Of a stretch of DNA of 25,815 nt, positions 5,461 to 25,815 are shown piece after piece. Each line of letters begins with the position of its first letter. The stretch's first letter is position 1. The stretch is from a virus. Both the position numbers and the translations under genes were made by a program. Location of the stretch: positions 1-25,815 of the IMG/VR virus record IMGVR_UViG_3300042868_007840; one strand, given 5' to 3'. The notes beneath the pieces were generated by a model. The model ran no database searches, was not told the origin of the DNA, and saw nothing but the letters and a program-made list of their open reading frames with translations.

Positions 5461-7683
5461 TCAGATGAGACGCAGTGTCTGCTGCGCTGTTGCATTTGCA
5501 AGATTCCCACAAGCCTGATTGAAATAAGACTCTTTTAGTTCGCTGCCGGTAAACTTTCGGCCAAGCTCAAGCGACATGACACCTTCACTTCCAATGCCCG
5601 TGAACGGCGAATAAACCAGGTCGCCAGGATTTGACCAAAGCGTCACGGATCGTTCGATGACATCGAGCTGGAGTGGGCAAAGGTGTTTTTCGTCGGAGGG
5701 GCATCGAGCGGCCCTTACGTTAAGGACGTTAGTTTGCCGAATGTCCATCCAAACGGGAGAGGCCCATTGCTGCCACTGATCCAATGGGAAATCCTCGCGG
5801 GAATGCGTCACCGGGTTTTCCTTCATTTCCTCGGGATCACCCCACTTGCGGAAGATCATCAGATACTCCGCCATGCCGGTGCGCGTGTATTTCGAGTTGC
5901 CGCGAAGCTGCTTGTAAAGCAAGCCTTGCGCTTTCGTCCGCTGCATCTCAATCACGGGGTCTTTCCAGATTGTAACCTCGGCATGGTAAGCCCATCCAAG
6001 CTCAACGTGGGCGCGGATGATTTCGCCCCGAAAGTCTCGCATTCCCGCCTTGCCGTCCCGGTTCGTGTAGTTCACAAGGTTCTTGCAATGCACAGCGGAA
6101 AGGCAACCGGGTTTTGTGATTCGCATCTTTTCAGCGATCAGGAACTTGTAATGCTCCATAAACTCCGCGTCATTGGAACAATTCCCCATGTCCTGCGCAT
6201 CGGCGCTGTAGATGTAGAGCGAGGCGAACGGCGGCGAGTAGATTGAAAAGTCAATCGAGTTGTCGGCTAGCGACCGCGCATAGCGGACGCAATCGGCATT
6301 GGCCACAGTCCACCCGTCGCCCGTTTTTGTAGTAATGTCAGTTTTCATTGTCAGCTGTTTGTCGTCTTCGTTTCTCAGGTATTTTGCAGCTTGTTTCATC
6401 GCGACCTGCATTTTCCGGTGAGCATCAATCTTCGTGTTGACCACGGAAAGAATGCTTTGCTCATTCGGTCCTTGGATCACCCATGCCGTCACCGGAAGCT
6501 TTTGGCCGAAGCGGTAGGACCGGCGAAGCGCCTGGTAGAACTCCTCGAAAGAGTAGGTCAACCCGACGAAAACCACCGTGCTGCAATGCTGCCAATTCAG
6601 GCCGTGGCCTGCGATTCCAGGCTTTGTGATGATGACCCGTGACGAGCCGGTCGTGAACGATTCCAGCTTGGACTCCTTTTGCACCGAGGTGTCACTACCC
6701 CTCACCTCAATGGCTTCAGGGATCAATCTTTGCAGCTCGTCCGCTTCGTAATTCGTGTTACACCAAACAATAACCGGCCCGTCAGTGAATGCCACGATGC
6801 GCGCAGCTTCCTTGCAGCGAGCTGGGCAGGAAATCCGCATTTCCTTGTGAATCGTCGTAGCGTTCAATTCCGGGTTGCGGAAAAGCTCGCCGTCATTCGC
6901 GCCTTGCGTTTCGTCGATTTCCACAAAAACCGGAGTCATTGTAAGTTGAGGAAGGACGTAAGCAGACCCGTCGAATCCAATGTCTTCCGGGTTGGAAACG
7001 CAAGCGGCCCAACCCGAAACCCATTCCCAAAAGTCAGCCTCCGCGTGGCCCTTGAGTCGGTAGCTGCCAAAGTTCATCGTGTCGTTGATGAACCAGCGGG
7101 AAAGCATTTCATTCGACGGCATGACGCCAAGGAACTCGGCGTGCTGGCCAAACTCCATGAAGTCATTCGGCGCTGGCGTAGCAGTGCAACAGAGTCGGTA
7201 GGGATGATTGGCGAAAGTATCAGTCAGGAGCTTTCGGGTCTTTCCGGTGAAGTTCTTGAGGATTGAGCTTTCATCAAGCACGACTCCGACAAATTGCGAA
7301 GCGTCGAAGTGTTCCAGCTTTTCGTAATTGGTGATGAAGATTCCGCTGCCTGCGCACTCCGACTGGTCCTTCACGACTCTGGCAGCAATTCCAAACTTCG
7401 TCGCTTCCTTCATGGTCTGATGAGCAACTGCAAGCGGAGTGAGGATTAGCACCATGCCGTTCGTGTGCATGGCAACCTGATGCGCCCATTCAAGCTGCTG
7501 AAGAGTTTTCCCGAGCCCGCAATCCTCAAATAATGCGGCGCGACCTTGTTTGACTGCCCATTTTACAACGTGAGCTTGCCAGTCGAAAAGAGGAGCGGTG
7601 ATCGGCATCGGATTAAAGCCTTGAGACTCTGCCTTGCGGCTTTTTGTTTGAATGAATTGGTCGTATTCTTGCGTCGGTGTCAT
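5461..7683 (-). CDS. SNF2-type helicase fused to a DNA N4/N6 methyltransferase
   Basis: The 740-residue protein joins two enzymes. Residues 30-440 form a SNF2/superfamily 2 ATPase: DCGLGKT (54-60, motif I), VLDESS (135-140, motif II with DESS), TATP (167-170, motif III) and QALRRSYRFGQKLPV (384-398, motif VI). Residues 450-740 form an amino-methyltransferase: SPPF (483-486, catalytic motif IV) comes before FTGIGSEG (694-701, the SAM-binding motif I), the beta-class order. The S-P-P-F form is typical of N4-cytosine enzymes but also occurs in N6-adenine ones. It could modify phage DNA against restriction, with translocation coupled to methylation. No restriction nuclease domain is visible. The ATG abuts an AAACCAACCA leader. 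Confidence 0.88.
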   Translation of the reverse strand: MTPTQEYDQFIQTKSRKAESQGFNPMPITAPLFDWQAHVVKWAVKQGRAALFEDCGLGKTLQQLEWAHQVAMHTNGMVLILTPLAVAHQTMKEATKFGIAARVVKDQSECAGSGIFITNYEKLEHFDASQFVGVVLDESSILKNFTGKTRKLLTDTFANHPYRLCCTATPAPNDFMEFGQHAEFLGVMPSNEMLSRWFINDTMNFGSYRLKGHAEADFWEWVSGWAACVSNPEDIGFDGSAYVLPQLTMTPVFVEIDETQGANDGELFRNPELNATTIHKEMRISCPARCKEAARIVAFTDGPVIVWCNTNYEADELQRLIPEAIEVRGSDTSVQKESKLESFTTGSSRVIITKPGIAGHGLNWQHCSTVVFVGLTYSFEEFYQALRRSYRFGQKLPVTAWVIQGPNEQSILSVVNTKIDAHRKMQVAMKQAAKYLRNEDDKQLTMKTDITTKTGDGWTVANADCVRYARSLADNSIDFSIYSPPFASLYIYSADAQDMGNCSNDAEFMEHYKFLIAEKMRITKPGCLSAVHCKNLVNYTNRDGKAGMRDFRGEIIRAHVELGWAYHAEVTIWKDPVIEMQRTKAQGLLYKQLRGNSKYTRTGMAEYLMIFRKWGDPEEMKENPVTHSREDFPLDQWQQWASPVWMDIRQTNVLNVRAARCPSDEKHLCPLQLDVIERSVTLWSNPGDLVYSPFTGIGSEGVMSLELGRKFTGSELKESYFNQACGNLANATAQQTLRLI

Positions 7684-22622: not shown

Positions 22623-23449
22623 GGTTCTTCGTAAAGGAATGTGTCATGCCCGCCCTTTTCGGAGAGCGTCCACTCAAGATCGGTTGTGAACATCTCGCCG
22701 TTCTGCTCCTGGAATGCGCTTGTTAGCATCCAGTCCCGTGTTCCTGCCGCTTCTGGCGGATCGCCTCGTGGCGTCGAGATGTTGCCAAGCTTGTTGAGCT
22801 GCGAGTTCGTCAAGCCATCGGTTCCTTGCGCTGATTCGGTCCATGTGATGACCGGTCGCGAGTAGGTGGTTTCTCCGCGTGCTATGCGTTTGCAGAACTC
22901 GATGGCGTCGCCGGTTAGTGTGATTGGCGCGCTAGATGTATCCTTCGCTGGAGTGAAAAAATCCTCTTCGTCGTAGGTTCCGACTTGGGTAAACTCCTTC
23001 GATGGCCGCAAGTTCCCGTTGATCAGTTCGCCTAGCGCCCACTTGAAAGAATCTGAGAGCGCAGCCCATTTAGAGTGCAAGGAAAGCGGCGCATCCTGAA
23101 GCTGGCCACTCAATCGGTATGTCGGGTCGGGTGCTTCGCCGCTCTCTCCGTAGGATGCTCCCTGCGCCCCGGAAAGCGATACTGATACAATCGTGATGTC
23201 GCCTTCTTCGCTGACAACTTCCGCCTCGACGACTTTTAGAAATGCCCACGAAAAGGAAAGGTCTGGATCAAGCGAGGTTATCGAAGTCCCCTTTGCGAAC
23301 TGGCCGGTGACGTTGCTATTTCCCCACGCGGTGCGTCGGATGGCAAACGAGTGCCGCCCGATGTATCCGCCGTTCTCTTGGCGGGTTGCGGTGAATCCTG
23401 GTTGCGGAACAACGTCGGCAAACCCTAGTCCTTTGATTGTTGCGCTCAT
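22619..23449 (-). CDS. Unknown tail module protein
   Basis: The 276-residue protein starts MSATIKGLGFADVVPQPGFT. It has a mixed beta-rich layout with several glycine/tryptophan turns (AWGNSNVTGQFAKGTS, SKWAALSDSFKWALGELI) and ends in a TLSEKGGHDTFLYEEP tail. It sits between the tape measure and the baseplate-like protein where siphoviruses encode distal tail and minor tail proteins, so such a role is inferred. The ATG overlaps the tape measure stop by ATGA. Confidence 0.6.
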   Translation of the reverse strand: MSATIKGLGFADVVPQPGFTATRQENGGYIGRHSFAIRRTAWGNSNVTGQFAKGTSITSLDPDLSFSWAFLKVVEAEVVSEEGDITIVSVSLSGAQGASYGESGEAPDPTYRLSGQLQDAPLSLHSKWAALSDSFKWALGELINGNLRPSKEFTQVGTYDEEDFFTPAKDTSSAPITLTGDAIEFCKRIARGETTYSRPVITWTESAQGTDGLTNSQLNKLGNISTPRGDPPEAAGTRDWMLTSAFQEQNGEMFTTDLEWTLSEKGGHDTFLYEEP

Positions 23450-24738
23450 CGTGAAAACATTGCTCCTCGCTCTTTGCGTGCTTCAGCGTTTCGGTAAAGC
23501 ATCACCAGAGTCTCTTGAGCGGTTCTGGTCTTTTTTGCCTCTTCCAATAATTGCGTTCCGCCGACTCCGCTTTTTCCTGTTAAGTTTTCTAAAACTTCCA
23601 CGGCTCTCACAATGCTGCCTGATTCGCCTTGGATGGTTTCAGCCATCGACGTTCTAGGCCCCAGTATGCTGTTGATCCCCGCGTTAATGGCAGCGCCCGC
23701 CCCTTGGGTTGCTTTGTCTCCGGTGATGTGTCCTCCGAGTGCGATGTATCCACCGAGTCCGTCACGGATTAATGAAGACGCGCCGATTTTGATAGATGCA
23801 CGGACACCCGCCATAATGGTTTCGCCGATTACTGTGCCCACTGCGGATAGCATTTCATGGTTACCCGCCACGGAATGCTTGATTGCAAGGCCTAGCATCG
23901 CGCCCGCTTTGGAAAACTTTTCCTCAAGCGTCGGAAGGAAATTGTTTGTCGCGTCCAGTGCGGATTTCAGTCCGTCGTTAAATCCAGTGCCGAATGCAAC
24001 TTTGAGGTTATCAACGGCGTCCTTCATGTTCGACACCTTGCCTTTCGTCGTCGTAGAAAGCCGCTCCATCGCGCCCGCCGTTTTGGAGAAGACTCCCTGC
24101 AAAAGCGTCATCGCTTGCGTCTGCGTCAGGATCGGCTTTTCACCTTTTTTCTGTGCCGCTGCCAAAGCTTCAAACTGAATCTTCACCTTGCCGGTCATCA
24201 GCCCCAACTCTTGCAGTCGGCCAATGGATTCGCCCGCGCTGGTTCCGCTGGTGATGGCGTTGAAAAGCCGACCGAAATGCAGTCCGACTTCTTGGATCGG
24301 TTGGCCGGCAATCGCCGCTGCATCCCCAACCATTCGCAATCCCGCGCCCGTCGCAAGCATGTCGCCGCCAAGGGTTTGAAGCAACTTGGAAGTCTCGGAA
24401 AGGTTCGCCACCTCAAACGGAGTGGACGCGGCGAATCGTTTAATTTCTTCCATCCGGTCCTTGGCTTTCGCCGCGCTTCCAAGGAGCGTCTCAAATTGCA
24501 TCGTCAGCGACTCGATGCCTGCTGCCTTGCCGGATGCGTCTTTAATGAATGCCAGTCCCGCGCCAAGAGCAACAGCGCCAGCGGCAGCGGCGGTAAGTGC
24601 AGCGCCAAGCCCGACCGATCCGACCGCGCTTCCAAGCTTGCCAATCACGCCGGCCAACCCGCTAGCCTGCACCTCAACGCCCGCGATAGTTCGCCGGAAT
24701 TGTGTGGCATCAGCCCGGATGTTAATAGTCAGCGCCAT
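23446..24738 (-). CDS. Short tape measure protein
   Basis: The 430-residue protein starts MALTINIRADATQFRRTIAG and is mostly helical with a hydrophobic stretch (AALTAAAAGAVALGAGLAFI, about residues 45-65) and a middle with LTMQFETLLGSAAKAKDRME and later NMKDAVDNLKVAFG, the style of the phage tape measure (TMP) family. It lies directly after the tail chaperone, its invariant position in siphophages. Tape measure length sets tail length; 430 residues is short compared with the lambda protein of about 850, so a short tail is expected. The C-terminal region with EARKERG is charged. Confidence 0.85.
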   Translation of the reverse strand: MALTINIRADATQFRRTIAGVEVQASGLAGVIGKLGSAVGSVGLGAALTAAAAGAVALGAGLAFIKDASGKAAGIESLTMQFETLLGSAAKAKDRMEEIKRFAASTPFEVANLSETSKLLQTLGGDMLATGAGLRMVGDAAAIAGQPIQEVGLHFGRLFNAITSGTSAGESIGRLQELGLMTGKVKIQFEALAAAQKKGEKPILTQTQAMTLLQGVFSKTAGAMERLSTTTKGKVSNMKDAVDNLKVAFGTGFNDGLKSALDATNNFLPTLEEKFSKAGAMLGLAIKHSVAGNHEMLSAVGTVIGETIMAGVRASIKIGASSLIRDGLGGYIALGGHITGDKATQGAGAAINAGINSILGPRTSMAETIQGESGSIVRAVEVLENLTGKSGVGGTQLLEEAKKTRTAQETLVMLYRNAEARKERGAMFSR

Positions 24739-24739
24739 A

Positions 24740-25320
24740 CTAGGTCACAGTGTCAAAGATTGCTCGCGCCCGATCCCGCAGACTTGCGGTCGGCCCTTCC
24801 TGCTTCGCCGCTCCCTTGATCGTGCGAAGTCCTTTCCGGTAGAGCAACGCGTGAAATAGCTCGGCCTTTTGGTCGGGCGGAAGGTCGATGATGTAGGCGA
24901 TTGGCCATCCGTATTCACTGGCGAAAAGGTCGATTTCAAAAGCTTCATCCTCGGGCGGATCTCCACGGTCTAAGGCTTTCCCGGCGAGTCATCGACTGTC
25001 ACCTGTGCCGCCTCGGTTCGCTGGTTCACGGCTCCGATGTATTCCGCAACGGCGGTTAGATCCTCGGCGGAAAGTTCCATGTCGGCGGTCCCGACTTCGC
25101 GGTTGAATCGCGCCTCGTCGTTCACGGCGTCGAAGGCATCGGCGGGCGGCAGGCTGTAGATCGCAGCGAAGGCAACCACAAAAGCGCCCGCCTTCTCGTT
25201 CTCGTCCTCGACGTTGGAAAGCTGCGCCAGGATTCGACCGACGCCGCGCCCGAATGGCCGGAGCTTGGTCTGCTTGCCGCGAATCGTGATCGCCGGCGGT
25301 TCTGCTTGGAATGAGGTCAT
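24740..25320 (-). CDS. Tail assembly chaperone G-T, made by -1 frameshift
   Basis: A 193-residue fusion results if ribosomes read the G frame to AAG at codon 115, slip back one base on GGGAAAG and then read the -1 frame to the TAG at 24740-24742. The 78 extra residues begin ALDRGDPPEDEAFEIDLFAS and include EYGWPIAYIIDLPPDQKAEL, a normal protein composition like the T domain of siphophage chaperones. The -1 frame has no ATG and no useful GTG in this part, so it cannot start on its own. The tape measure ATG follows one base after its stop. Confidence 0.85.
24970..25320 (-). CDS. Tail assembly chaperone G
   Basis: The 116-residue protein starts MTSFQAEPPAITIRGKQTKL. A beta-rich N-terminus with KLRPFGRGVGRILAQLSNVE and a helical middle (EKAGAFVVAFAAIYSLPPAD) fit siphovirus tail chaperones that coat the tape measure during tail assembly. 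The G product ends at the TAG right after the slippery site, as in lambda G. Its ATG lies five bases after the stop of the upstream gene, behind an A-rich leader. Confidence 0.85.
   Translation of the reverse strand: MTSFQAEPPAITIRGKQTKLRPFGRGVGRILAQLSNVEDENEKAGAFVVAFAAIYSLPPADAFDAVNDEARFNREVGTADMELSAEDLTAVAEYIGAVNQRTEAAQVTVDDSPGKP
24976..24982 (-). promoter_or_regulatory. Slippery heptamer GGGAAAG for -1 frameshifting
   Basis: In the G reading frame the codons GGA AAG are preceded by G, giving G GGA AAG, exactly the heptamer used by lambda G/T. It is placed four bases before the G stop codon, and the -1 frame continues for 78 codons. No hairpin directly downstream is obvious; as in lambda, one may not be needed. 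Confidence 0.85.
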
Positions 25321-25324
25321 GTTG

Positions 25325-25815
25325 TTATTTTCGGTAGAGTAGCCGGTCGAGTTGGTTGATTTGGTCTTTCGTCATGTCCGCGCCGACGTATGCAGTCCTC
25401 CCTCGATGCTGAACGGCGGCAAACTGCGGGCCTTTGTCCTTGATGAAATCCACCATTACGCGGTGATTGTCGAAGGCGCACCAAAGGTAAGAGATCAGAG
25501 CATCCGGCAAACGTCGCTCAATCTCGCCAGGTGGAAGCGTCCACAATGCAAAATCCGCCGCTGCCGATTGTGAAAAGCGGAACTTGTATCCGCTCGTCCC
25601 GTAGGCGACTCCGATGATCGGGTGGCCGAGCTGCTCCATCGCTGCCGCCGTTTGCGTGTGGTGCGTCTCAATGAATGGAACCGAAGGCGCGAACAGGTGA
25701 ATCGTTCCCTGCTGAATGTCGCGGACAAGTTCGGCGTAGCGAACGAATGCCGCTTTCATGCGGACAATCGGGCAATCTGGATTCGCTTTCGCGTATTCCT
25801 GATCGTCCCAAACCT
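25325..25815 (-). CDS. Tail module protein, incomplete at right edge
   Basis: The frame stays open to the right edge, so the gene may begin outside the window. The visible part before the internal ATG at 25759 reads VWDDQEYAKANPDCPIVR, after which MKAAFVRYAELVRDIQQGTI follows without a break, so at least 162 residues are present. The rest includes HTQTAAAMEQLGHPIIGVAY and ends DQINQLDRLLYRK. It sits just before the tail chaperone, where siphophages often hold tail completion or tube genes. I do not recognise the family; a start at 25759 (144 residues) is the alternative. Confidence 0.65.
   Translation of the reverse strand, partial: VWDDQEYAKANPDCPIVRMKAAFVRYAELVRDIQQGTIHLFAPSVPFIETHHTQTAAAMEQLGHPIIGVAYGTSGYKFRFSQSAAADFALWTLPPGEIERRLPDALISYLWCAFDNHRVMVDFIKDKGPQFAAVQHRGRTAYVGADMTKDQINQLDRLLYRK

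Follow-up and report, generated by a model that had tools for sequence, protein, structure and literature searches.

Evidence for a probable programmed −1 ribosomal frameshift in a putative tail-chaperone gene from an uncultured tailed phage

Does the short gene that precedes the tape measure gene in IMG/VR virus record IMGVR_UViG_3300042868_007840 end at its own stop codon, or is it continued in the −1 frame to give a second, longer protein? The DNA analysed here, referred to as the window, is the whole stretch of 25,815 nucleotides (positions 1 to 25,815 of that record). We consider it very probable that the putative tail-chaperone gene at this locus, which comes from an uncultured tailed phage, is subject to programmed −1 ribosomal frameshifting. 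Elsewhere the window encodes a primase, a helicase, a methyltransferase, an exonuclease and an endolysin, as expected for a tailed phage, and one ORF (5461-7683) has both a SNF2-like helicase and an N6/N4 DNA methyltransferase domain. In the direction of transcription, the features of the locus are as follows.

25325..25813, minus strand: 3′ portion of the gene preceding G (232 aa in L005, a relative), without a family match (ORF call and family scans).
24970..25320, minus strand: ORF of 116 aa in the 0 frame, a putative G-like tail assembly chaperone, which adjoins the T extension and the tape measure gene on their upstream side (ORF call; pN/pS 0.11 over relatives).
24976..24982, minus strand: putative slippery heptamer G_GGA_AAG, invariant in 9/9 relatives and within a 20-nt invariant stretch.
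24740..24982, minus strand: T-like extension in the −1 frame, 80 codons from GGG, with its terminal TAG (pN/pS 0.16, vs 1.25 and 2.6 in the other frames).
Predicted G-T junction peptide: TEAAQVTVDDSPGKALDR.
23446..24738, minus strand: tape measure protein gene, 430 aa (PHROGs, Pfam and tblastn matches).

The 0 frame is a minus-strand ORF of 116 codons (25320-24970) with the 3′ end ...TCG CCG GGA AAG CCT TAG. The heptamer GGGAAAG, reported near this end in an earlier note made from the letters of the window, is present on the minus strand (24982-24976) and is read in the 0 frame as G_GGA_AAG, followed by CCT TAG. From GGG AAA onwards the −1 frame holds 80 sense codons, 78 of them past GGG AAA as previously claimed, and it closes with TAG (24742-24740), leaving a spacer of one base before the tape measure ATG at 24738. 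As to the efficiency of slippage, we infer that most ribosomes would terminate at the TAG of the 0 frame and release a 116-residue G-like protein, while a minority would slip back one base, the tRNA pair moving from GGA AAG to GGG AAA, and would go on to make a G-T fusion. Translation gives this predicted fusion the 193 residues that had been proposed, with the junction sequence ...DDSPGKALDR.... The same note held that ordinary annotation would place a spurious ORF, in the same frame as G, in the gap before the tape measure gene; such an ORF does exist (24966-24745, 73 codons, GTG start); in relatives its translation shows little conservation, and in L009 it is interrupted by a stop.

The identity of the downstream gene is supported by several searches. 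The gene at 23446-24738 matches PHROGs tape measure families (E down to 4e-13), has tblastn matches to annotated tape measure proteins, and matches Pfam TMP_3 with an E of 7e-7, under the gathering score. Mosaicism is evident in this tape measure gene: most relatives share a similar first part and diverge in the middle, and identity over the whole protein is 41-83%, compared with about 88-96% for G-T in the same contigs. The spacing between T and the tape measure ATG varies, the two being 1 base apart in the window and overlapping in L006 and L008. In L009, an additional ORF of 209 aa separates the T stop from the tape measure gene, and its ATG overlaps the TAA of T; that T has remained intact here counts in favour of the frameshift reading. 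This ORF (L009:4584-5213) is missing from the window, and its C-terminal HHVDHIHPL...N...NL...N has an HNH-endonuclease-like look without a Pfam match. Among the genes upstream of G in L005, no tail tube family match and no confident family match of any kind was obtained; one of them weakly resembles Phage_attach, below threshold (PF05354, E 0.01).

Taken alone, neither the number of heptamer copies nor the open frame goes beyond chance, and it is the comparative evidence that carries the claim. Two copies of GGGAAAG are present in the window where shuffling predicts 4.0, and the chance of an 80-codon open frame at the window's composition is about 0.05-0.13. Across the 16 listed minus-strand genes there are eight in-phase X_XXY_YYZ sites (YYY being AAA or TTT), of which only that of G lies less than 20 bases from the stop codon of its gene.

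Relatives were sought in IMG/VR with the fusion protein, which yielded nine separate metagenome contigs encoding both the G and the T parts. In each of these contigs G again spans 116 codons and closes with the 0-frame stop, GGGAAAG occurs at the same base, and the −1 extension is retained; the joint conservation of extension and heptamer in related phages, named in the earlier note as potential support, was thus indeed found. The opposite case, an extension retained after the heptamer had been destroyed, did not turn up in collection scans with T alone or with a DNA pattern in which the heptamer letters were unspecified; both scans recovered the same nine contigs only, and every contig from the heptamer-unspecified scan retains GGGAAAG. 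No relatives of the fusion were found in isolated phages, plasmids or bacterial genomes, and a search for more divergent G-T pairs via the neighbouring genes returned the same contigs, plus two that end before G.

The frames themselves were resolved by comparing the window site by site with six relatives, these seven sequences being the ones that differ from one another over the region examined. Upstream of the heptamer, third positions of the 0 frame account for 67 of 87 variable sites; downstream of it, third positions of the −1 frame account for 33 of 48. Over the relatives, pN/pS is 0.11 for G, whereas the T region gives 0.16 in the −1 frame and 1.25 and 2.6 in the other two frames; these values, like the site counts, ignore the shared ancestry of the sequences. 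Such a pattern indicates purifying selection on the −1 frame, and the open extension is conserved as protein. A maximum-likelihood change-point fit placed the phase switch at alignment base 348-358, with a support interval of 327-361 and the heptamer at 338-344, and the model with no switch was worse by 42 log units. Substitution periodicity thus changes frame at the heptamer or within about 20 nt of it. The longest run of invariant positions, 20 nt, includes the heptamer; because the relatives are close (about 88-96% identical in G-T), this block is unable to single out the heptamer base by base.

These data also bear on the other ways in which two adjacent conserved frames might be expressed. 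The −1 frame could be a separate gene, translated by reinitiation or from an internal start past the G stop, and start-like codons within it, together with an ATG at codon 31 of the extension in L008 and L009, would suit that explanation. The earlier view that the extension has no start of its own is right for ATG in the window and too strong for weak starts, the earliest of which is a TTG 45 codons in. Nevertheless, ATG, GTG and TTG are all absent from the first 44 extension codons in the window and from the first 30 in any relative, whereas purifying selection on the −1 frame begins close to the heptamer, well ahead of any candidate start, and we therefore regard a separate T gene as very improbable. 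Equally little credence is given to the frames being joined through slippage during transcription or a different ribosomal shift nearby (+2 or single-tRNA slip). The comparative data do leave an uncertainty of about 35 nt in where the switch lies, and with it room for such events, but homopolymer runs in this interval (about 24993-24959) are never longer than three, so that transcriptional slippage is unlikely, and against another kind of shift stands a canonical X_XXY_YYZ site within the interval, in exact phase and invariant. That one ordinary gene was split by a sequencing error or a frame-disrupting mutation is the least probable explanation of all, since it has nothing in its favour but the shape of two adjacent frames and is opposed by nine further contigs with the identical arrangement and synonymous differences among them.

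A programmed −1 frameshift, most probably at the heptamer, is therefore the reading we adopt; we call the product a tail chaperone on the strength of where the gene lies and how it is built, and not through a match to a known family. Scans with G and T against Pfam, and with these two and the fusion against PHROGs and NCBIfam, produced no meaningful hit and matched no tail-chaperone model; therefore, the proposed function rests on anatomy, that is, on the tape measure neighbour, the heptamer and the predicted product of two lengths. A sequence search of the PDB returned no match. AlphaFold models were of too low quality (pLDDT 60 and 50) to argue from the fold, and searches with them gave no significant match, although two tail assembly chaperones were among the first five fold hits of G (E 0.1 and 0.3). 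Downstream of the heptamer, no stimulatory RNA structure beyond chance (z +0.2 to +1.6) and no convincing covariation were detected. It is possible, though we hold it doubtful, that G and T are a tail-chaperone family unrelated in sequence to the known ones, in which the same slippery site was kept or independently acquired and works without a stimulatory RNA structure.

The kind of phenomenon is already well known, and the present locus is a real but ordinary case of it, as first proposed. It adds a clean, comparatively supported example of the G-T frameshift from an uncultured phage group whose chaperones are missed by current family models, and it indicates that genes of this type, where their extension escapes annotation, can be recognised from frame-resolved conservation combined with a neighbouring tape measure gene.

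In phage lambda, the G and GT products are made at a 30:1 molar ratio, the tape measure protein is bound by the G part and the tube subunit by T (PMC5009743); by analogy, the G part of the window fusion may bind the tape measure protein and its T part may recruit the tail tube subunit. The heptamer G_GGA_AAG is highly shift-prone in Escherichia coli (PMC5009743). Lambda G/GT, run as a control with the same script, shows the identical heptamer, equally phased, close to the 3′ end of G and upstream of H; in both phages the tape measure gene follows immediately after T, the −1 extension of G. The likeness to lambda claimed in the earlier note thus holds for position, heptamer and order, and it does not extend to sequence: lambda GT and the window G-T have no detectable similarity, and the alignment to lambda G/GT that the note had suggested detected no homology (hhalign probability 0.4%, not significant). 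The dimensions differ as well. G has 116 aa here and 140 aa in lambda, the fusion 193 aa against about 279 aa, and the heptamer is 3 bases from the 0-frame stop instead of 15; T ends 1 base before the ATG in the window, whereas in lambda T and H overlap by 8 bases. Among long-tailed phages the G-T frameshift is widely conserved, and low sequence similarity between phages has been described for the G/GT chaperone class (PMC5009743). As far as the class of long-tailed dsDNA phages is represented by Xu, Hendrix and Duda (2004, cited in PMC5009743), its low G-T similarity between phages is as seen here. Unlike that class, the window proteins form a family that no model of Pfam, PHROGs or NCBIfam matches, and they belong to an uncultured phage group. 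The place before the tape measure gene and the product of two lengths, predicted here, are common to both (Xu, Hendrix and Duda 2004, as cited in PMC5009743).
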